A stretch of DNA of 64,000 nucleotides. Source: Atrichornis clamosus (taxonomy: Eukaryota > Chordata > Aves > Passeriformes > Menuridae). The DNA lies in NCBI GenBank assembly GCA_013400975.1, contig WBMZ01011574.1:62001-126000 (forward strand). Reading direction: 5' to 3'. The notes below the pieces were generated by a model that was given only the letters and a program-made list of their open reading frames with translations, was not told where the DNA came from and ran no database searches. Position 1 is the first letter of the stretch. Each line of letters begins with the position of its first letter. This document shows positions 3,001-62,871 of this stretch, one piece after another. The position numbers and the translations under genes were made by a program.

Positions 3001-4446
3001 GCTAACAAGAGCTGCTTGGATAGCAAAGGGGTTGTGGTCAGCTGCAATCTCACTGTGGAACATCTGCAGGCTTGGTAGTGTGTATCCTAAGACCCTTGGC
3101 ATTGCAGTGGCTTTTGAGCTCAGGTGAACACTGCTGGTAGACCCCAGTCACTTCAGAGTGCCTGATCCCCCAGGAGTGGGTTTATTTGGATGAGAGTTGA
3201 TTTCTCAAGTTCAGACCGGCTTTTCACGGGGGGTGAGATGTGGAGGTGAAGGCCCATGGAGGTGCCTGTACCCCACTAATGACTAGAAATGGAGCCTGAT
3301 TCACCAACTTAAACTGCATCCCTACCTTCCCGTGGGCTCCCTGTCTCCTGGCTGAAGGGACACGAGGGGAATCTGAATCAGGGGCGTGTGTGTGTGAGCT
3401 GTCTGCCATTATCCATGATGAACGTGTATAATTTGGTTTTTGTACTTCTTCACAGCAGGCAGCTCTGCTCTCCTGGACTGCTATATGCCAGTGCACCAGT
3501 TCCCCATGTGTCAGGGATGAGACTGGCATTTTGAGTGCTGGCAGTGCTTCTTTTGCTGATGCTGGTTTCTAGGAGGTGACGGGGTTGTCAGTGGAGCAGT
3601 GTGTGTGTGAGCATGCGGCTACGCCTCAGGTGCAGTGATATGAGGAACTCTTCGACTCCCAAGCTCTTGCTGCTGCTGCTTTTTCTCTGCCTTCACTCCC
3701 CAGATCCCCTCTATTCTTTGTCTTGGCAGGAAGAGGTGTCCCAGTGTGCACAAGGCTTGAAAAAATGCAAGAAAAATTGGAAGTGTTTCAGTTTTTCTGT
3801 ACATGTTTCAATTTTTCCTTGCAGTTTACAGTGCTAGACGCACTGGATCTTATTACATAAAGATGTTGTTTCTTGTCATTAATCCAATGTGCGGTGGCTG
3901 TTGGCACTCTCCTAATTTGCTGTTCTCCTTGGTGAATAGCTATCTCATGGCACATACAGACTTGCTCTACTTTAGCCCTATTGAGAGTATTTGCTCCTTA
4001 ACCCTAGGACCAAGGGAAGTATCCTTGCCTTTTTTGCTTTGTTTTATCCTCATAATTTTGTTCACTATATAAAAAATAACTCTGGCTGAAGCGATAGCAG
4101 TCCAGCAAAACTTGGGGCACAACTTTCCAGGTTTGCCCATTCAGCTCAGGCAAGAGTCACAGCACTAGGTTCTAGGTCCACTGAAATTGAGTATTGGATT
4201 TATGGCCCCTGTTTTGCCTGTAAATGCCGCTTTAAATTGCTGTGAGGATGGTTTTCCACAGAAAGAAAACAACTATCAGTGCTCAGCTGTTCATTCTCTT
4301 AGGACTGTTACTAGAATATGTCAGTATTAATGTTTCAACATTTCTCCCTTTTTGCCTGAATCGGGATGCAGAAAGCATTGTCATTACAGCTTTTCTGTGC
4401 TTGAGCCTGGTCTTTCAGGCAAGGATCTGACTGGTGCATGAGCTGC
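1..4446. other. Intronic sequence with no recognised gene
   Basis: This is part of the long AT-AC intron of CACNA1I. I see no exon-like open frame with splice sites and no clear repeat family. Minor simple-sequence features are a short GT run near 3386-3396 and GT/CTG runs at 3601-3608 and 3667-3679. Confidence 0.6.
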
Positions 4447-8387: not shown

Positions 8388-8950
8388 AAATCACAGAATG
8401 GTTTGGCTTGGAAGGGACCTTAAAGATCACCTAGTTCCAACCCTCCTGTCATGTACAGGGACACCTTCCACTAGAGCGAGTTGCTCAGAGCCCTGTCCAA
8501 CTTTGTCTTGAACACTTTCAGGGATGGGGCATTCACACTTCTTTAGGCAACCTGTGCCTGTGCCTCTCCACCACCCTCGTAGTATAGATATTCTTCCTGT
8601 TATCTAATCTAAATCTTTCTTCTTCCAGTTTACAACCATTCCCCTTTGTTCAGTCACTACATGGCCTTATAAAGTCTGTCTCCAGCTCTCTTCCAAGCCC
8701 CCTTTCAGGTACTGAAAGGCTGCAAAAAGATCTCCCCGCAACCTTCTCCAGGCTGAACCACCCCAGCTCTCTCAGCCTTTCCTCATAGGAGAGGTGCTCC
8801 AGGCCTCTGATTGTCTTTGTGCCCCTCCTCTGGGCCTGCTCCAACAGGTCCGTGTTCTTATATTGGGGGCCCCAGAGCTGGACACAGAACTCCAGCTGGG
8901 GTCTCATGAGAGCAGAGTAGAGGAGGACAATCACCTCCCTCAACCTGGAG
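8388..8950 (-). mobile_element. CR1 LINE 3' end with reverse-transcriptase C-terminal remnant
   Basis: The block starts aatcacagaatggtttggct on the + strand, the reverse complement of a CR1 tail, and can be followed to about 8950. The minus strand from 8943 encodes the known CR1 ORF2 C-terminal region: [20 protein letters not shown], then [20 protein letters not shown] and [15 protein letters not shown]. After this the frame is lost, so it is a dead, 5'-truncated copy. It is the longest and best-preserved young CR1 in the window. Confidence 0.95.
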
Positions 8951-11900
8951 TTTTCTCAGTTTGTATTATACCTGCAAATAAAGGGCAGTTTTTTGCTACC
9001 CCCCCATGCACCACTACATAGTATTTTTTAGAAAAGCAAAGTAAATTTGTCAGGTGAAACGAACTCCACCATCTTTTCAGCTTTGACATCATATATTGTA
9101 GTCTAGGTGCTGCTCCAAAGCACGCTCTGAAGAGGAGCTTGCAGCCATCTGTTTGATATTTATGAGATTGTAATTTTAGATCAGGGAGTTTATTATTCTG
9201 TATTAAAAAGTAGGCATAAAATAAACCATGCCTAAAGGGCATACAACCTTTCAAAATCTTTTCAGCCAGTTAAATCTTTCTCTCTCTCTTCTATATAATT
9301 CTATGTTTGAAAGCAAGATTACAAAACACCTGGATGTGATTTCTGTTAGCTCTATGTAGAGATTGCAATCCAAATGCAACTGGCTGCTGCTCCTGAGGGG
9401 ACAAAATGCCTTTTGAACCTTTTTTTTTCTTTTCTGGGCCAGCAGGGAAAGGGATGGACATTGTTGGCATTACAGCTGACTTATTTAAATTACAGTTTAG
9501 AGTTGGCCTGTTGATCAGTGTCTTTAACCGTTCTATATCTCTCAAACCAGCTGCTGGAGGCAAGCCATGTTCCAGCACTTTCCTGGAGTGGGTTTACGGT
9601 TTAATAGCAGATTTGCATTGTTTTTCATTCAATTTTTATCACACTCACAAATCTTTGTGGATTAGGTTCTGGTATGGCTGTTTCCACCATAGCCTTTATT
9701 TTGTTTTAAGCCATCTTTGCTCACTACAAGTCAAATTTCCTATAAAAGGGGAATGATTCAGAGCTTGGCTGTTGCTTGGCTCCTAGATGGGCATAGGTAA
9801 AGAATCCTCCTCTGTGGTATCTGTATGTATTTCATCAGGAGCTTATGTGCATGTAAGTTGGTTCTTAGCTGGGCTTTTGAAATGAAGATGGATGGTGATT
9901 TAGGTGCAGAGATGAACTGTTTGCCCTGCAGAGAACAATGCTAACAAATGTCCATACTGCCTTCTGAACCAAGGTACTGCTGGGTCTCTAATCTCTGGCA
10001 GATGTGAAATGTATGCTTAAAGCTTTGCATATAAATATATGTCCATTCATATTAGTTTTTCTGTGCACATGTAACCATGAAAAAGGGTTGCTTTCATGTA
10101 TACATGCAAACTCTGCACACAAATTTATCATGTGGAAGATGCATTTCTTCCGTTTGTTTTTTGCATGGGTGAGCGCAGCCGTGATCAGTCCATAGCTTAT
10201 GGATTTTGTACGTGGGTTACTTGAGTTGAACACAGGGAAGACTAAAAAGCCTCTATGTGACTATTGCAGCACAAGCGAGCACACCTGCAAGCATGCTGAG
10301 GTGCTCTGCATTTGTTGAGACATCTGAGTGGTCATCCAGTTTCTCTTCAGAATCTTTCCTCCACAAGTAAAGCTTCAACAGCTCTTGGGACCAGAAAATT
10401 TTGCCACCATGTATTTTGAAGAACAATGAATAAGTGAAGTATGGTAAGCAAAAGCCACTGAGATTTGTTACTGTGGCAGAATACCGTAACATCTGTGATC
10501 TTTATTTCAAAAGGTGAGGTTGAGTGACCTTGGAGAGCAGCAGGAATCTTATCTTGGGAAACCTGTGATATGGTTTGGAATTGTGCTGTTGTGTGGGCTG
10601 CTAGAAGCTGCTTCATCTCAGAAATCTCAACTGTGCAGTGCAAATGCTTTTTTCCTATTATAGGAATGCTTTTCATATGTTTACTAGTTAAAGCATGTAT
10701 ATTTGCAGAAAAGCTTGTCTGTAGGGTGCTCTTCACCACTTGTCATGTTCATAGCAGAAACTAGGAGAAGTAGAATAACACAGGGAGAATTAGGCCTGTT
10801 CTCTAATTGTTTCTTTAATGGATTATCCTAATTAGAAATGCATTATTTAATAATTAAAATGCACTAATTTGTAATTCTGTAATGATCTAAGTAGTTAGTC
10901 TTTGCAAGACCTGAAGAAGAGATTTAAAGCCAGATAGAGAGCTCTTATATGACATCTGAACGATGTGCACAATCATTAATTTAAGATTAATCCTTGCTTT
11001 TTCCTGAAGTGCTGGCATGTACCTGCATATATAATCCCCTGTGTCTTTTGGGAACTTGGCTTTTGTCTTCAACAGTGAGTTTCTCAGGCAGTGTTCACTC
11101 TTTCAGTAACAGCCATAGACTCTGGAAGCTTTACAGGAAGCTTTACTCTTTCTACAACTCTCCAGACTGTTTGTACTATTATGACTTTTGCATATTGGGA
11201 GAAATAAAGTTTTTTAGCTCTGACTCCTTAAGGAAAGTGCCTAGGTGTCCATACCATCCATCTCTTGAAACCTTTGGTCATATTTGAGTCCCTTTTGGCA
11301 GAGGAGCAGAGATCTTAAGCTAAAGCTACTGCAAGGAGGCCAGTAGACTTAAAAGACCATAAAAAGGCCTCTGGAGCAGAAATCCTGCAGTGTGCACTCA
11401 CAGTTGAGCAGACAGCAGGGACTCCACGAGGCTGTTGTGCCTTGGAATACATGCATGCAAGAGAGCCCCTGCTCCCTGCAGAGCCCCTGTGCCTTGGGAG
11501 TCTGCTACTTGTCTGCTTTCTTGTTGAGTCCGGCCAGCAGAGGGAAACCTTCATGCCTTGGCTATCCATGCAGCTTGGAAGATGAATATTTGACCACAAC
11601 AGAGATGAGATTTTCTTCAAGCTTATTTTTAAAAACTACTTTTCCTTGGGTGCTCTGTCTCTGAAATGCATCTGACAGCTGACCTCCAGCCTGAAGGTTG
11701 TTTCCGCCTCCTCTTTCTCCTGCTTGGAGTTTATTTTCCAGTCCCATCTGAATGACTCAGTGGTGATTACTCTCCATCTTAATGCAGTTCATGAAGGGAG
11801 GGCAACTTGGCAGAGGAGGCTGTGTTTGTCTGCAGGGCCTTGGAGACAGCCATGCTGTACCAGAAGACGCTTGCAGCCCATCTCCCTGTATCTGGCACTG

Positions 11901-29680: not shown

Positions 29681-32600
29681 CTAGCCAGTCAACCAAAACA
29701 CAACTCTATGTTAATGTGTAGATGAGTGTAGAGCTCCCCTGCATTATGGAGTTACAGGCTATTCCTGCCCACGTACAAATATAGGACCCATCTGAAAAGT
29801 CATTGGGTGGCAAGCACTGGGGTTGTCCCAGTTTGTATTTCCTTCATCTGAGCCATCGTCCTCTGCTGTTCCAGTTGTAGAGTGGGGATTAGGCAGGCAG
29901 ACTTTATTGACATGATTTGTAATGGGTTAAAGCTTACAATTGAGTTATGCAGGTTCTGTGTTAATAAAATCTTTCCATTAGACCACCACATGCTCCAAAG
30001 AACATCAGAAAGAAGCTGCATTGTGAAGGGCTTGGGGAATTCAGATCTGTTTTCCTGCAGCTATTTTACTGTCCCTGCCAGGGTTAGGTGCGTGGTGTGC
30101 CATCAGCCTCCATCTGCTGGGGCTGGAAAGAACCATCTCTGTTTCTAAAAGATAGCCCATGATAATGTGTTCAATGCTAAACTAGTTTGCAGGTTTTTGG
30201 GTTTTTTTGGTTTTTTTTTTACTTTTTTGAGCCATTTCACAACTAGAAGAGAAGCAGGAGAATTGCTAGAATGTGGGAGGCTCCCTCCTATGGAAGGATG
30301 ATTCTCCCTGGATCAGGTACAAAACTGGTTGTGTTTCCATAGGAATGACAAGTGTTTCATGGGTTCCTGCTCTCCTCTGCCCTGGTTGCTTTATCCCAGT
30401 CTTGTGCTGTGTCTTGCCAGCCTGCTGGAGGAACTGTCAGTGAGCACAGTGCTCTGGGGTGAGAAATGAGAAGGAAAAACTGGACCCAGAGTGGTCACAG
30501 TGTCTGGGTGAAAAAGGAATGTGTTAGTGCTACGCTTGCCGCAAACAAGCAGACAAACCTCTACGTGCATGTCCATGGTGCTCCCTCTTGATGTAGTATG
30601 TAACAAAATGAGTATGGATCCCCAATTTAGCTGCTATTGAGATCATAGGTGAGGTAGTCAAGATTTGCTGGAGTCTGAGAGTAGGGAATGGTTGTCTAAC
30701 CCTGTTCCAAGTTGTCAGGATCTTACCTGTGTTTGGAGAAGTTCTCTGTGCTGTGGGCTGACAGTGGCTTTGTTTTGGACCTCAGCAGTGGTAGTTACAG
30801 GAGAAGGTGTTAAAGGATCACAGCAGCTCCTTACGCACAGCACAGGGCTTCAGTTCAATGAGGAGAGAGAATAACGACTTCTTATTGCTCTGTTTCTTTT
30901 GAATTAGGGTTAATTGAAAAAAGTAGGTGAGTTCTTAAATGTGGGAAATAAAGGCCTTCTCGAGAGAGATTAAGTTTCCAAATAGGTATGAATGATTTAA
31001 AATAGAGGACTTTGATAATTTAAAAATAACAAATGCATCAAACGTGTCATCAAAAAGCCTGGGCATTCTATTTGAAGAAACAAATCACTTGACAGACCAT
31101 CACATCACCTGAATGTATATGCCTTGCCAGTGAAAGACCTGTATCAGCCGATGATTGTCCTATGTATGTGGCCTATATCCTTGGATACATTACATATGCA
31201 TAGACATACTTGCTTTGAAAAACTGTAATGCAGCAGCCAGTAATGGGGCCACTGTTAGTCTATCATTTCTTTTTTATCTACCTTCAAACAAAATCCTGTC
31301 AGGCAGCATCCGGGAAGCTGAAAAGAAGAGTGTGAGAGGAAAATGTGACTGCTGACAGGAGAGGAAAGGATCAGATGTGCGCATAGAGTCTCTGTGGAAA
31401 TGGTCTTAAAGCACAGTGATACAGACAGGACCAGTAAAAGCTCTGTATATGACAGTGCAGCCTGGTGTGACAATTGTCATTTGGAAACTTACGGCTCTGT
31501 GAGCTGAAGAGTTTTTTTGAAGTGTTGCTAGAACTAATTATCCTGGAGAAATGAAACTAAACTAAACAAAGAAAAAGTTTGAATAGAGGTCACTGTGCAC
31601 AAAATAATAGTGCAAATTTTATTTTCTTTTGTACCCTCCTCCCCAGTTTTAGTGGCAGGTGGGTGGGAAGGGTGTGGAGTGAGGGTGAGTGGTGTGGGAA
31701 AAATTGCTTTATCAGCCTGGTGCAGCATGCAGGGATTTGAGTGGGTGTCTGGCTCCAGACCTGGTGCACTGTGGCTGCCCTGGCCCCCAGTGCTGCCTGG
31801 CAAGGGTCCCCACAGGGCTGCAGAACCTCAGCCATCTTGCTGTTAGCTGGGGATTTGTCATCCTCCCTGATGGCAGAGGGGCTGGGCATAGGGCTGGCTT
31901 TATGGACAGGTTGTTCTTTCTGGAAAAGTGATGGGAGCACTTTTGCGCTCACTTTTTGAGATTTACTGTGGGTCCACAGTTGCTGTCTCCTCCTGGTGTG
32001 CCAAGTTTGTCTTTACTGTCCTGACCTACGCTCTGGTTTTTCTTTTCCTTCCACTCACTGTCATAAATAATATGAAAGCCCTTTAAATGCAGTGAAGTTA
32101 AGTGTGTGCTCAAAGCCTGCCTGCGAGGAGGCTGTGCTGTACGTGCAGTGCAGGTGCCTCCTGCTTCAGCCTCCTGCCATAGGAACAGGTGTGGCAACCC
32201 TTCTTCCAGAAAAAAACAGTGGTGCAGAGGGGTTTTCTCCTTTTTCAAAGAGGTATTATGGCAGGACTGTCCCTTCTTTTCCTCGCTGATAAGTGGTAGA
32301 AAGCATTTCTGACCCTTAATTGACTCAGACCCAGTCAGACATCCTTCCTGCACAGCACAGTGTCCCATGGGAATGGGCACTTGAAGTGTCCATCCTGGCA
32401 GCAAAATAGGTGGGTGTTTGGGGCACAATTCAGTGTCAGGCATATAAGAATCTGTAGGAAGTAAATCTTGAAATATAAGGATAGATTATTAGTAAGAGAG
32501 CCTAAATCTTGTTGTAGTCTTTCCTAGTATACCTCTGGCTCCATGTCTGATTGCATCTGGACAGGAGGACTCATTCTCAGATGAACGAAAAGATTTGTGT

Positions 32601-33285: not shown

Positions 33286-36200
33286 CAGTGGCAGTAAGGA
33301 AGCAGTGTGCGCTATGGAGAGGAGGCAGGAATGTGAGGGTAGCTGGCTGGTGCAGGTAATGGAACTTGCACGGGACAGGGGAAATGCACATGATCCCTTG
33401 GTGCTCAGAAATTAATGTGACAGGGGATGGATATCTGTGAGATAGCGAAGAGTAATCCGATAAAGAGTCACACAGAATGGGGGATGGTTGTTAAAAGTTA
33501 AAACCAGTAGTCTCATAAGAGACTCTGAAAAGAGAGAAAAGGAAATACTTGGCATGGCTAGAAAGGAAGGGTGGGGTAATGGGCTAGACTGTAACCAGTG
33601 TGTCCAAAATGAAATGAGATTAATCCACAACCACAGTTTCTGACTGGAAACTGTATAGGGAAAAATAAGTCTGTAAATAAGAGGAAGAAACGTGTATTTC
33701 CAGAGGCTGTCAAAAACTCTAGAATAAATAGAGTGTGAAGTTGAATCTATATGAAAACAAATAGGTCACAGGAATACAAATGTGGTACCAGTCCTAAATC
33801 TGAATAGAGATGATGAATACAGGCAGAAAGACATCAAAGAAGCAGTAGAACTATGCTGCACTGATTGATGGAGGCTTTAGCTAGGCTGCCCTATTAGCAA
33901 CATGCTGTGTAGGAACTGCGTTCTTCAGAGATGGTCAATCTGCTGTCAAATGTGTTGGTAACTTGTGCTTACATAGCATGCTTCTATTAAAGGAACCTGG
34001 AGTGCCTATCGAAGGTAGCAAATGCTTTGGCAGATTGGAAAAGAGAGAGATGTGTGGGTGTTGGGCTGCTTTTAGTGTTACACTCTCACAACTATGGGCT
34101 GAATTTTATCTTGAGATCCCAGTGAAAGTATCAGTGGAACATGGAGGTAGACAATATATGTCTTCTGGCTCTTGCCTGTTCATCCACTGCACACCTGAAC
34201 AGCCAGAGACCTCTCTGGATGCAGGGAGCCCTGCATTTATGATAATCTATATGCAGTACATTACTTGCCTCTACAAAGTACAGCCTGGACACTTTTCCCA
34301 TTGTTCTCAGGAAAGATTGATGGGAAAACTGTTTTCCCTGTGAGCACCGTTCTCATCAAATGCAGTAGTAGTTGAGACGAAGAATGATCTTGGGTCAAAG
34401 ATGCTGGAGAACAATTTGGGAGACTCTTGCTCAGTTCCCCACTGTGCCCCACGTCTCCAGTCTGCCCTTGGGTAAATGCATTCATTTCTCTGTGCTCTTG
34501 CTTCCTATGTGCAAAGCAGAGATCATAGTGCATCGTTTGCCTGTCCTGTTAGGTTAGATTAAAACCTCTTTGGAGCAGGCAGCATGTTCTACTGCATGTT
34601 TATGTAACATTTTGCATAATTTGATCTTGGCTAGCATCATCTAGGACACGTGGAGATACCTCATAAATAATACTAATAATATTTTAATATTGTTAATGCT
34701 TAGCACATTCACAGCATTTAACCTCCCCCTAAAACAGCACTCAGCACTGTCGACATCGCAGTGATTGAGCATGAGTCATGTTGGCTCCTTTCCCTGGCAT
34801 GGTGCAATCTGTCAGCCAGCCAGAAAGCTGAGGCCTTTAGTGAACATGAGCTGGGTGTCAGGAACACCTGGATCTTAATGCAGCCCTAGCAGTAACTTAC
34901 TGTGTCATTACTGGGTAGTGTGTTGGGTTCTTTTCTTTTTAAAGTGAACCCTGATCTTTGGGCATCTGGCTCGAGACAGTGAGTTAGAACTTCATGAATC
35001 CTGTTGGCTGTATTAGAAATTAAAAATATTACACACTCCTGAAAACCAGTCTATAATAAACTCTGCATGCCTTGGGAAACCCAAACTAGGGGACTCTTTT
35101 AAGAAACCATGCTCCTCCTCTGCTTTCTTATCAGTACAAAGGGCAAGTATTGATGTACCTTAAGAAACAGATGTGGAATTTACTGTAAGTTTACACAGTG
35201 TCTTGAAGGAGAGTACTAGACAATTTATACAATCTCATTTTCACTGACTGCTCTTTGTTGCAGGATGTAAGAGGAGGGATGGAAAAGAGACCAGATGTAC
35301 TAGAAGAGTGCTGACACATCTGCTCATCCACCGCAGGGTCCCTTTTCCTCCTCAGATGAGAAGCTTAAATAATGAGAATCTCTCCCGCCCTTCACACGTA
35401 CCTTTGTCACATGGACACATCAGGATCTTCCTTTTCAGGAGTGCATCCATAGCCACTTGTGTCCTCGAGGAGGTTCCAGCAGCTGCTGCGTGCCTGTATG
35501 CTGGCTGAAGCTCCTAGCTTCCAGTTATCTGCTGAGACAGATTGGCTCAGCCATTTGCAGTCTTTTCTCCAGGCACGTGTCCTGCAGGCCATCAGTGCCA
35601 GTTCTTCCAGAATGCCCTCTGGGAACCAGGGTAGAGGGGCCAGCTACAAGCCTTCAAAAAACATTTTAAAATGTGAGGGGAAAAATGTGCATTCAAAATA
35701 GGGAGTGTTGGCAACTTAACCTCTGAAAATAGTTTTAATTACAGTCAATAATGAAACAAACAACAGGAGCTCATACCCAGCTCTCTCTGTTATTGCCCTG
35801 CATTGTGCTTAGGCTGTATGCAATTTCTTCTCAGTGACCTTACCCGAGCACTCCCTACACTTCTGAATTAATCTTTATTTACTTTGCTGCAAAGCTTTGT
35901 CACCGCATGACTTTTTTTTTCTGTACTGAAGCATTTGTCAGAAAAGCCTGCTAAGCTAAGCACCAAGCATAGGATTTAGTGATGCTCTATCCACTGAAAA
36001 CATCACCTGGCTAGGAGAAGGGAGAAAAGCAAAGTGGCTTATCCTTTCTTTCTGCCCCTCCAATCTAGGACTGCTACTGAAGTCGGAGTACCCTTAAGAT
36101 AATTTAGCCATGGAAACGGGCTGCCTGGAGAAGCAAGGTGCTCACTTCCATATCCTTCACCAGACGATATGCTGGGGTACAGGATACTGCACTGACACCT

Positions 36201-39200: not shown

Positions 39201-41540
39201 TCTTTTTCTAATGAATCTGTTCTTGACAGAAAGTCCCTTCCAAAGGGCAGAAACATAGAAGTATTGCCAAGCATTTAAAATTTGTCTACTGCTTCCCAGT
39301 AACACCAACACAAGTCTTCCCTAATGCCTCTCAAATCAACATAGGAGTCTTACTGTGTTTGGCAGTACTGCAGTCCTTCCTTTGGCATCAATATTATTGA
39401 AGATCCGAGCAATGCATGTCAGGTGTCTAAAGTTTAGGTGCTCCTCTTTCTTTAGAATAGTGTATAAATGATGGTGTGATGAAAGCAAACGTGTACAAGA
39501 TTGCATGACACAGGAACACCTAGAGCATATTGACCTTGAGTGTTTGCAAAAAAAGCTTTATAAATTGCCCCGTGTGGCTTGGCCACCATGAAATCCCAAC
39601 ACTGCAATGCTGGGTGTTGGCATTTAATTTCCAGTTGACTCAGAACTCAAAATCAGTGTGTTCTATGTCAGGTCAAAAAACCACAACCTTTTTTTCTGTT
39701 ATGTCAAAATTTTTCTTTGCACTAAAAAGACTAAGAAGAAATGCTTCAGTCTTTCCAAAATAGGATTTTTAAAGCTTTTTGTTCTGAAAAATGTTTTGAT
39801 TGTTTTGATCTATTTGAACACAAACACATTTTGAGAGGTATTTTTCTTTGAGTGAACGTTGTGTTACATTCCAAGTCTACTAGTGAGTTAGCTTAGCAGA
39901 TTGAGGCTGAAGAGAAAGAACCCTGTTGATTCTGTCAGCTTGTTTTGTAGAAAAAGACAACAAAATGTCTATGTATCAGTATAGAAGGAAAAAAACCCCA
40001 CAACAGCTGAGTGGAGAAAAAGTGTGAGGGGGCAAAACATGAAACTCACCTGTGAGAACATTTACAAAAGACAACAGCAATGAGGTAGAAAAAATGAGCA
40101 TTTCTTTCCTTGGAGCTGCTCCTTTCTGTGACCTTCACAACAAACTACTCTTATCAATGGAATATTAAGTGTCCTCCTTCAGGTACAGCGTCCTACAGTC
40201 ACAGAGCAGGGGAAGAAAGTAGGGAAGGAACACAACTCTGTCCTCAGGTTATTTGAAAAGGACGGAAAGAAAATGTAATCGCTGCAGACTGGAATGACAG
40301 GGTGAAGCCATTTAGCTGGCAGGAAGGATGATGGGATGGGAGGTGGTGGAGAGGAGCCCAAAGGGGAAGCAGAGAGGAGCACTCATGCAGATGTGCTGTC
40401 TCACCTGCAGAGTAGCCTCAGATGAGCCAGCCTGGCACCAGCTCAGAGGTGGGAGGCCACAAGGAGTTGTATGTGGGGGTGGCGGTGTTTGGCAGGCATT
40501 GCGTGGGGCTCCACGTTTCTACTCGAGTCACTGAACTGCTCTTCTCTCCATTCTGGGGCAGGAACAGGTTGTGCCATGGCCAGTCATACCACAGGGCTGG
40601 CTTTTTCTCCTTGCTATAAGTGCTTTGTAGTCAGGCACTTCTACTGCAGGTTAAACAGGTCTGAGATATTCAGGACTTTAACTGGCACAAGGCATACCCT
40701 AGGAGTAGTTTGTAAATAGCAACAGGAAAGACTGAGAGATTGTCAGACTTGTAAAATCTGTATATTGTCTGTGCTGCTAGGAGTGCCAGCCTCTGGGGAG
40801 CTCCTTGTGCTTCTTCAACTGATGATGAAGGAATAGGAGAGGGGACTCAAAAGTACTGTTTTATTTTTCTGCACTGTATTTTGTCAGTGATAGAAAACAG
40901 AGATTAAGGCCAGTCCTCAGAACATTAAGTGGTACTCAGTTTTTTAAGTGCAAGTTATTTACAGCTCCAACACAGCAGATGTTGCTTCTGCTATTTGTCA
41001 TTCAGGAATTGAGCCCAAAACTTTGCCTGTCTCCCATCACCTGTTTCTAACATCATTTTCCATTATGCATAGTCATGTTACCAAACGCTACCACAAAACA
41101 CGTCCAGCTCCCAGAAACACCTGCATATCTCCTTAACGGTTCTGTAGCTTGTGACTTTTGGCGCATGCCAGATGGTTTGGGGTGGATGATGGGTCTCTCC
41201 TGGTGTCTGCTGGTGGTGCATGTCCCCATTGAGTCTCTCCCCATCCCAGAGTTGCCCTATCCATAGGAAGACATGGTGGAGGGTCAATGAATACGCAGTG
41301 GCTGTCTCTGGCCAGCAGCTGGCCAGGCCCAGCTCAGGGTGAGGAAGGACAGGGTTGGCACCCAGCAGCAAGGAAAAGTCTTGCTGCCACAGGCAGCCAC
41401 TAGCTATAGAACCAGTGCAAGTGTTTTAGGCAAAATATATTTAATCTAGATATGGATCTTAAGTCACAAGACAGTGCTGAAATGAAGGGTTTAACAAGAC
41501 TCTTATAAGGATGTGGGTAAGGAGACCAGCCCATGGTTAC
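33286..41540. other. Intronic sequence with no recognised gene
   Basis: No exon, RNA gene or named repeat was recognised in this 8-kb stretch. It contains an RE1-like sequence at 36654-36674, a minus-strand G-quadruplex motif at 36939-36959 and scattered T runs (for example 38213-38240). Confidence 0.5.
36939..36959 (-). other. G-quadruplex-forming motif on the minus strand
   Basis: C-tracts of 5, 3, 3 and 3 separated by 4, 2 and 1 bases on the + strand give a canonical G3N1-7 quadruplex motif on the template strand of CACNA1I. Confidence 0.65.
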
Positions 41541-43577: not shown

Positions 43578-45431
43578 ACGATGATGCCAAATGGATTTTG
43601 AAGAATGCAGAGAAGAACTCCAGTCTTTTCTGAAAAACCTCTGTGAGCTAATAGAAACCTCTCAAACTGCTTTTGTGGGCTTCAGATAAGATCATTAAAG
43701 AAATGTGCTAGAGAGAGAAGTGTGTAAAGTTGAAGTTTTGTTGCATAGACCCTCAAGGGAAAATACTTTTTTTGGTGCCCTTTCGGTGCATTCCTCTCAG
43801 AAAAGGGATCTGATTTTGAAGCCCACATTGAGGGTGAGCTCCATGTTCATTACTTTGTACGGCACATGGGATTAAGTTAGTGAGGGATAGTGATAACACA
43901 TTTTTTAAATCACCTTATATCATAATTGGTACAGTAGAACGTACCCTGCTCGTCTCTGATTTTGCAACTGAAGGTAGCTTGCCACAAACCAGGTGGGGGA
44001 GAAGAGAGAGAATTAATAATCTTCTAGATCAGATTGTGCAGGTTAGTCATAAATCACTGTCAGAGAATGAGTATGGAAGTGTTGCTCAGAACAAATCATA
44101 GAAGTTGAATGTCTCAGAAATGATCAGAGATACTGGCCATGGTTTTAGATTCAGTACTGAAAGGACTGAAAATGGATGCATTTAGTAGGTTGTATTTTAA
44201 GTAGATAATTTCATGTCTCTTTTATTTAAAAAAGATAAAATTGTCTGACGGTGGAAACTGGGCAGATATGTTGTTGTGAGGTGTGTAAAATGCCCAAGAA
44301 TGTTTCTGCCAGAGGTTGGAGGTCTATTCACTCTACATCACTGCTCTGCAACGGGAGCACTGGGGAGGTATTGCACAAATGCACCAACTTTTAGAGCTAA
44401 AATATACTGTAAATTAGTTCTTGGGTAAGTGTGTACCAGGTTCAAGACTCCTTCAGGAGGAGAGGGATGGTGAACAGGGGGCAGAGAAGAGGGTTTGTAG
44501 ACTGCAGAGAAGGTCACACAAATACATCATTTTTATCCACTTCTCTAATGCTTAAATGAAGTGACACGTGATGAAATTATGAGACAACAAAATAATAATA
44601 AATAGGAGGGAACAATTTTTAATGTAAATTATAATTAGCCAATGTAGCTCAGGGCTGCCAATTATTATCGAAGCAGATATTTTAGCAAGATTATCAACAA
44701 AGGATTCAAATGAATAAGCAAAGCATCTGCAGGGACAACAGTGTAGCTGAGAAAACAATTATAAGGACTATCAATCCTCATGCTTTAGGGCATAAACAGA
44801 TCACCAGCTGGGGTCAGAAATGCAGCTTCTCGCCATAGTTACTGAGTAACTTGGGTGCATTGTGGAGTTTTATATGGTGTGGGTCACTGCTGGAATATAA
44901 TAACAGACTAGATGGACCACTGGCACTTCATTACCCCCAAGATCCTCTGAGAGGTGAAGAGGAAGAGTTCTACCCTCATGTTGTACCCCGTTCCCAGAAG
45001 GGCAATAATCACTAGGCTCACACAGAGATGAATCTGTCTATTTTGATTTAGATCCTTAGATCTTAGAGATCTCTGATACATTTAGGTATAGGCCACCACA
45101 TAAAGTCTATTCCAAGTAATTGGAAGATTCAGTAAACCAATGAGAAAAGGGACTCAGCAAATCAACAGGAGAGGAGCAAGCATGTGTTTAACTATGGCAA
45201 TGAATTGGCCTGTGTAAATACCTCAGGCCTTTCGTGCTACCTCTACTTTCCCTTTTTCAAGAGTTTTGGCTTAATCAAGGAATGGAGTAGTGATGAACTG
45301 AGGACGTGTGGGGGGGGAAATGTGAGGATGTAATAAATCAGCCTACCAGCACTTCTTTCCCTTAATCTTTCTATTTTGTTACTTCGAGCCTAGAGCAAGA
45401 TTATCTCAGCCATGATGCTTTTGCAGAAGTT
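43578..45431. other. Intronic sequence before the AC acceptor
   Basis: No exon was recognised. 44560-44770 is AT-rich with TAATTA-like and TCF-like words and could be a conserved element. Nothing resembling the previous CACNA1I exon is present. Confidence 0.55.
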
Positions 45432-45450
45432 TTCCTTGACTCTTTTCCAC
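45432..45450 (+). promoter_or_regulatory. U12-type branch point and AC acceptor of an AT-AC minor intron
   Basis: The sequence TTCCTTGAC at 45432-45440 equals the U12 branch-site consensus TTCCTTRAC at every base. The following bases, tcttttccac, end in AC at 45449-45450, and the presumed branch adenosine (45439) lies 11 nt from the end, within the short spacing typical of minor introns. No AG acceptor is available that keeps the conserved Trp-Phe-Glu codons in the exon. Minor (U12) introns, including AT-AC ones, are known from voltage-gated sodium and calcium channel genes. The matching 5' splice site (expected ATATCCTT) was not found next to any plausible exon here and should lie upstream of the window. 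Confidence 0.85.
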
Positions 45451-45562
45451 CTGGTTCGAGTGTGTCAGCATGATGGTGATTTTGCTAAACTGTGTTACCC
45501 TGGGAATGTACCAGCCGTGTGAGGATATGGATTGCCTTTCTGACAGGTGTAAAATCTTGCAG
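45451..45562 (+). CDS. CACNA1I: CACNA1I coding exon: domain I S1 and S1-S2 loop (partial gene)
   Basis: This internal exon encodes 37 full codons preceded by one base (C) that completes a codon begun in the previous exon, most simply CC|C for proline. The peptide starts [14 protein letters not shown] and continues [20 protein letters not shown]. It covers the end of the cytoplasmic N-tail, transmembrane helix S1 (about residues 6-20) and the extracellular S1-S2 loop, which has three cysteines typical of T-type channels. As I recall them, GMYQPC and [10 protein letters not shown] are Cav3.3 forms; Cav3.1 and Cav3.2 have GMFRPCED instead. The donor is CAG|gtaagc at 45563. The start at 45451 is set by homology and by a U12-type AC acceptor. 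The frame has a stop (TGA 45437-45439) just upstream, so the exon cannot begin earlier in that frame. An exon starting at the AG of 45459-45460 or 45467-45468 would lose the conserved WFE. Confidence 0.93.
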
Positions 45563-46578
45563 GTAAGCGGATTTCCTTCTTGTTGTGATGGTGCTTCAGT
45601 CCAAGTCACAAATTTTCATGCATGCTTTCCTTCAGCGTGTGGGCGATACCTTCCCAGAGAGGCTGGCAAGATTGTCCCTGGCAGTGAGCTATCCTGTTGT
45701 AAAATGGCAAGAGCTGGCTTTGAGGAGAGGAATGGGATTGAAGAGAGCATGAATGAAGTCTTCTTGTGACCATGCAATACTGAACACTTGCTAATCTTCC
45801 TGATCCTGCACAGAAGTTTCCTGACATAGACAGCTACAAGATATGTACAGCTCAGGGTTAAGTCAGGGAGAAATAACTAAGGTTACACTATCTAGGCAGG
45901 AGAGAACAGCAGCCTCCAATGCATTCCTTAGTCTGGTGAGGTGCAAGAGTATTATTGATGCAACAGATACTGCAGCATTCAGGATGCCCAAAGTGAGAGG
46001 AAATAAAAGGAATGCTTAGAAGTGCCACGAGTCTATCCAGCCTATAAATGCCCCAGCTGTGTTTGCTGCCTCCCCAAAGGGAAGGTGACCCTTCCCTTGT
46101 GAAGGCAGAGGGTGTCATCCACAGTGTTGCTGTGGCGAAGACCTTCAGGTGTCTGAGACTTCTCTCTGTGGTGGGTGTGTGCTGTCCAAACTGTGCATGA
46201 AGCTGCGCTGTGTCCTCAGCTGAGCCGTTTGCAGCAGGGTGATAGGAAGTCCCTTCCGGGGGGACCTTGGGAAAACAGTGTTTTCCTGGCCAGGTTTTGA
46301 CTTGCTGGTGCTGAACCAACACCTCCTTTCAAGTCTGTGTAAGGAGTCTCTGAGTCTACATCAATTACTTCACCTATGGGTGAAAAAATTATAAAAGCCC
46401 TCAGTGAACTTGAACAGCAGGAAACTGTGATGCCAGGGCTGCATGGAAGAAGCTTTCCCAGCCCTGCCTCTAACTCATTTTCAGAAGTACTGAAATTAGT
46501 ATTTTTCTCACATTCTGTGTTTTAAAGTCCAAGGCTGAAAATGCCTGTCAAATATGCTTTTGGGTTTCTGTTTGGCAG
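45563..46578 (+). other. 1,016-bp GT-AG intron of CACNA1I
   Basis: It is bounded by gtaagc and tgtttggcag. It falls in phase 0 between the S1 and S2 exons. No repeat or additional exon was seen inside. Confidence 0.9.
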
Positions 46579-46712
46579 GTATTTGATGATTTCATCTTCA
46601 TCTTCTTTGCCATGGAAATGGTCTTAAAGATGGTGGCCCTGGGGATCTTTGGCAAGAAGTGTTACCTTGGAGATACCTGGAACCGCCTGGATTTCTTCAT
46701 TGTCATGGCTGG
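46579..46712 (+). CDS. CACNA1I: CACNA1I coding exon: domain I S2, S2-S3 linker, S3
   Basis: The exon has 44 full codons plus two bases (GG) of a split glycine codon, starting in phase 0 directly after the preceding exon. It encodes [19 protein letters not shown], then [20 protein letters not shown], then FIVMA. S2 spans about residues 4-25. The glutamate of FFAMEM and the aspartate of NRLDF sit where voltage-gated channels place the gating charge-transfer acids. [16 protein letters not shown] is the strongly conserved S2-S3 linker and S3 start of Cav3 channels. [12 protein letters not shown] separates Cav3.3 from Cav3.1 (AFFAVEMVVK in my memory). The acceptor is tgtttggcag|G and the donor is GG|gtaggt at 46713. 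The protein is a pore-forming subunit of a low-voltage-activated neuronal calcium channel in the plasma membrane. Confidence 0.97.
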
Positions 46713-62773: not shown

Positions 62774-62871
62774 GATGGTGGAGTACTCTCTGGATCTCCA
62801 GAACATTAACTTGTCTGCAATCCGTACTGTCCGTGTCCTGAGACCCCTGAAAGCTATCAACCGTGTGCCCA
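62774..62871 (+). CDS. CACNA1I: CACNA1I coding exon: domain I S3-S4 loop and S4 voltage sensor
   Basis: The first G completes the glycine codon GG|G from the exon ending at 46712. It is followed by 32 codons and one base (A) of the next codon. The peptide [16 protein letters not shown] covers the end of S3 and the short S3-S4 loop. [16 protein letters not shown] is S4, with basic residues at every third position (R, R, R, K) as expected of a voltage sensor. Gln occupies the place where Cav3.2 has the metal-binding histidine (DGHN), which fits Cav3.3 or Cav3.1. NLS in the loop is an N-glycosylation sequon. RPLKAINR, with Lys, matches Cav3.3, where the paralogues have RPLRAINR. The acceptor follows a roughly 60-base pyrimidine-rich tract and reads cttctgcag|G. 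The donor is a perfect A|gtaagt at 62872. The next exon (S5) is not in the window. Confidence 0.97.

Follow-up and report, generated by a model that had tools for sequence, protein, structure and literature searches.

CACNA1I exons in the window

The window, a 64,000-nt stretch of the genome of Atrichornis clamosus, carries on its + strand three exons of a voltage-gated calcium channel gene, the first of which follows an intron end of unusual type. The exons are:

45451..45562, + strand: CACNA1I exon of 112 nt carrying domain I S1; its donor, GTAAGC, is ordinary
46579..46712, + strand: CACNA1I exon, presumed domain I S2-S3 (134 nt), with acceptor ..GGCAG and donor GTAGGT
62774..62871, + strand: CACNA1I exon, presumed domain I S3-S4 region (98 nt), with acceptor ..CTGCAG and donor GTAAGT

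When joined, the three exons give 114 residues in a single open frame, in which Pfam recognizes the Ion_trans domain (1.1e-24). The best PDB match of the S1 exon alone is the T-type alpha-1I chain 7wli_A (2e-20), and the joined exons match this same chain with 310.5 bits (5e-93), ahead of alpha-1G (271 bits) and alpha-1H (262.5 bits), with all 114 residues compared. We take the matched alpha-1I, alpha-1G and alpha-1H chains to be human. Judged by this protein comparison, the gene is CACNA1I (Cav3.3), being closer to Cav3.3 than to Cav3.1 or Cav3.2. The original prediction had read the peptide WFECVSM, just before S1, as Cav3.3 sequence, an assignment borne out by the alignment, where by our own count 112 of the 114 residues are identical to 7wli_A.

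Both introns that have their two ends in the window are GT..AG, and the other intron ends in view are likewise ordinary. The unusual end therefore belongs to one intron.

Rfam returned 0 matches in the window at gathering scores, and there are no repeats in 45300-45600. Pattern searches gave no match to any pattern in a viral contig collection and 34 pattern matches in a genome contig collection, 0 of which were confirmed by tblastn; both collections consist of viruses or prokaryotes and are uninformative on birds. Elsewhere in the window, a reading frame on the - strand (8650-8955) is without a Pfam match and appears to us to resemble the last part of a CR1-type LINE protein. CR1-type LINE elements are common in birds and reptiles.

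Branch site, intron end and reading frame before the S1 exon

Two features precede the S1 exon:

45432..45440, + strand: U12-type branch site TTCCTTGAC, with the branch A at 45439
45449..45450, + strand: intron terminus AC, placed by the frame and the conserved residues; the CAC fits YAS

With both strands of the window considered, TTCCTTGAC has a single exact match, the one at 45432-45440, and the intron tail TTTTCCTTGACTCTTTTCCAC lies directly before the exon start at 45451. Extended by the next three bases, the motif becomes TTCCTTGACTCT, which fits the minor-spliceosome branch consensus TTCCTTRACYCY given, together with the acceptor YAS, in a figure legend of PMC6259924. U12-type introns have a conserved branch site close to TTCCTTRAC, as TTCCTTGAC is, and a review places the optimal branch-to-acceptor distance of this intron class at 11-13 nt (PMC3584512); from A45439 to the last intron base, 45450, the distance is 11 nt and so lies inside that optimum. 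The AC that marks the AT-AC subtype stands at 45449-45450, a position that follows from the frame and the conserved residues. What had been proposed from the letters of the stretch, namely a perfect U12 branch consensus 11 nt before an intron end reading ..ccAC, is confirmed with respect to branch motif, spacing, AC end and frame.

How much weight can the motif bear? As controls for the pattern counts we used 60 sequences, each of 128,000 bases, simulated with a first-order Markov model. Across both strands of the window the 9-mer TTCCTTGAC was found once against 1.01 expected by chance, and it is unremarkable by itself because about one is expected per window. Its place is another matter: the chance that the 9-mer falls on any of the three positions lying 11-13 nt ahead of a particular exon start is about 2e-5, as computed from about one match per 128,000 positions. 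When TTCCTTRAC was combined at the right spacing with YAC, one instance was found against 0.1 expected in the simulated controls, and with YAS one against 0.28. The relaxed pattern YTCCTTRAY plus YAS was found twice (41129 and 45432) against 1.98 expected in the same controls, and so has no signal of its own. Given these controls, the signal resides in the strict motif together with its place before an exon, not in the motif class. The site at 41129, on the + strand, is a second relaxed U12-like branch-plus-acceptor pattern, in a number such as chance would give, and coincides with no known exon.

The exon start at 45451 reads C|TGG TTC GAG TGT GTC AGC ATG, which encodes WFECVSM after a split codon. 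At this point the Cav3.1, Cav3.2 and Cav3.3 PDB chains have CNPWFE in common, and since all three read alike, the exon is expected to begin within the proline codon or immediately behind it. The residue before the W in 7wli_A is indeed a proline, which C|TGG would complete, and the intron is accordingly predicted to be of phase 2, matching the C|TGG split. Upstream, the frame of WFECVSM runs into a TGA at 45437-45439, a stop codon that the branch site itself supplies.

The claim that no AG acceptor fits was examined over 45400-45480, where AGs end at 45409, 45426, 45429, 45460 and 45468. The first three precede the stop, and no AG lies between the stop and the W. An ordinary major-type acceptor at 45426, 45429, 45460 or 45468, combined with an exon start that diverges in this species, would nevertheless account for the locus in another way, and the ..ttttgcag ending at 45426 does look like a U2-type acceptor. 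However, use of the AG at 45426 or 45429 is blocked by the in-frame TGA; the AG at 45460 would cost 10 nt and break the frame; and the AG at 45468 would cost 18 nt, that is, the WFECVS codons, of which WFE and S are common to the Cav3.1, Cav3.2 and Cav3.3 chains. The claim therefore stands for each of these AGs, and we give an ordinary acceptor hardly any credence.

Search for the upstream exon and the donor

No upstream CACNA1I exon was found by tblastn or by codon pattern in positions 1-45450. In tblastn with a presumed N-terminal sequence of Cav3.3, the strong matches among the first 60 listed, all from this query, were to the three exons only; of the query residues before the W, the last 28 agree with 7wli_A and the first 51 are presumed Cav3.3 sequence. 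The codon pattern for Cys-Asn-Pro, searched in any frame of the + strand, occurs at 8 places in the window, of which 6 lie upstream of the exon, and is followed by RTATCC at 0 of the 8.

The donor of a U12-type intron was sought as (A/G)TATCCTT. The sole match in 1-45440 to CC followed by RTATCYT, at 36150, is preceded by the peptide GLPGEARCSL, unlike the IKMVCNP of the channel, and was discarded. On reading by eye, ATATCCTT was rejected as a donor both at 31175 and at 36150, and GTATCCTT at 4019 is not preceded by CC. The motif RTATCCTT occurs 8 times on both strands of the window (3 times on the + strand) against 3.24 expected, a count that 1 of 100 shuffles reached; no role for these copies was seen.

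Because the 45,450 bases upstream of the junction yielded no further exon, the intron may exceed 45 kb. We regard the chances for and against a minor intron of more than 45 kb as evenly balanced; if the length is real, the intron would lend itself to studying how distant sites are paired by U11 and U12.

Other donors can be imagined for the same acceptor. A U12-type intron with a non-AT donor, such as a GT-AC or other hybrid, has precedent in that U12 introns with other termini occur, but mixed termini are described as disfavoured (both PMC3584512), and AT-AC is the published type for the domain I S1 position (PMC6259924); such a hybrid is exceedingly improbable. A bolder reading, in which this lineage has a donor that no longer belongs to the AT class, strikes us as scarcely credible as well.

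Probably a known minor intron of voltage-gated channel genes

The position of the acceptor before the domain I S1 exon has a published counterpart. PMC6259924 describes the U12-type AT-AC splice site of domain I S1 as shared by nearly all calcium and sodium channels, with Nav1, Nav2, Cav1, Cav2 and Cav3 among them. At least one minor intron is reported for all 10 alpha1 genes, CACNA1A to CACNA1S (PMC8767276), and another account has 100% of human alpha subunit genes with a minor intron, crediting the first notice to Wu and Krainer 1999 (PMC6865273). The original prediction had likewise counted minor introns, AT-AC ones included, as conserved in voltage-gated sodium and calcium channel genes. 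In the fly T-type gene Ca-alphaT there is an AT-AC intron of the U12 class whose human orthologue is also U12, and human orthologues of such fly introns share their subtype (PMC2831892).

The intron end described here is like the domain I S1 intron of Nav1, Nav2, Cav1, Cav2 and Cav3 in position, in its branch TTCCTTRACYCY and in its YAS acceptor, and with the acceptor side compared no difference was seen. With the Drosophila Ca-alphaT intron, compared at the level of the gene, it shares the T-type channel gene and, as predicted here, the AT-AC U12 class. We found no paper naming a bird CACNA1I intron in the open-licence literature; PMC6259924 makes no mention of chicken, Gallus or bird, and the excerpt of PMC6717393 does not mention CACNA1 by that name.

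A different comparison leads to a rival explanation. SCN4A intron 21, like the present intron, belongs to a voltage-gated channel gene and ends in AC, and is a published AT-AC intron removed by the major spliceosome; the intron before S1 might be removed in the same way. Major-spliceosome AT-AC introns do exist in sodium channel genes (PMC2831892), and the last 30 nt before 45451 are 70% pyrimidine, the two major-type acceptors in the window having 57% and 90%. As the value falls between those two, the absence of a distinct polypyrimidine tract, a mark of U12-type introns, is not evident at this intron. Yet in contrast with SCN4A intron 21, which needs the major spliceosome, the site at 45432-45450 has a U12 branch motif, with the complete consensus at 11 nt, and the domain I S1 site of Cav genes is published as U12 (PMC6259924). 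Removal by the major spliceosome is thus very unlikely, if somewhat less remote than an ordinary AG acceptor or a changed donor.

We are highly confident that 45432-45450 belongs to the acceptor end of a known intron, the U12-type AT-AC one found ahead of the domain I S1 residues in voltage-gated calcium and sodium channel genes, here in a vertebrate CACNA1I gene. The original prediction of a U12-type AT-AC acceptor in front of this exon is supported on the acceptor side of the intron, the side in view, because gene identity, frame, branch site, spacing, AC terminus and the literature fit together. For the remainder of the intron we infer the AT donor, the end of the upstream exon, the involvement of the minor spliceosome and the precise junction. 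In the splicing reaction that would follow, TTCCTTGAC would base-pair with U12 snRNA, A45439 would serve as the branch point of the lariat, and cleavage in the second step would come after the AC at 45450; an upstream exon ending in ..AAY CC would then be joined to C|TGG, completing Asn-Pro-Trp-Phe.

The intron is very probably orthologous to a conserved minor intron that has been published, and as such is already known; its end raises no new questions. It does carry a warning in that exon callers relying on AG alone could misplace the start of the S1 exon, and it is plausible that a GT-AG-only annotation would do so here. For the channel family, the finding suggests that this genome has retained the acceptor signals of the minor intron in domain I S1, which is published as common to sodium and calcium channel genes.
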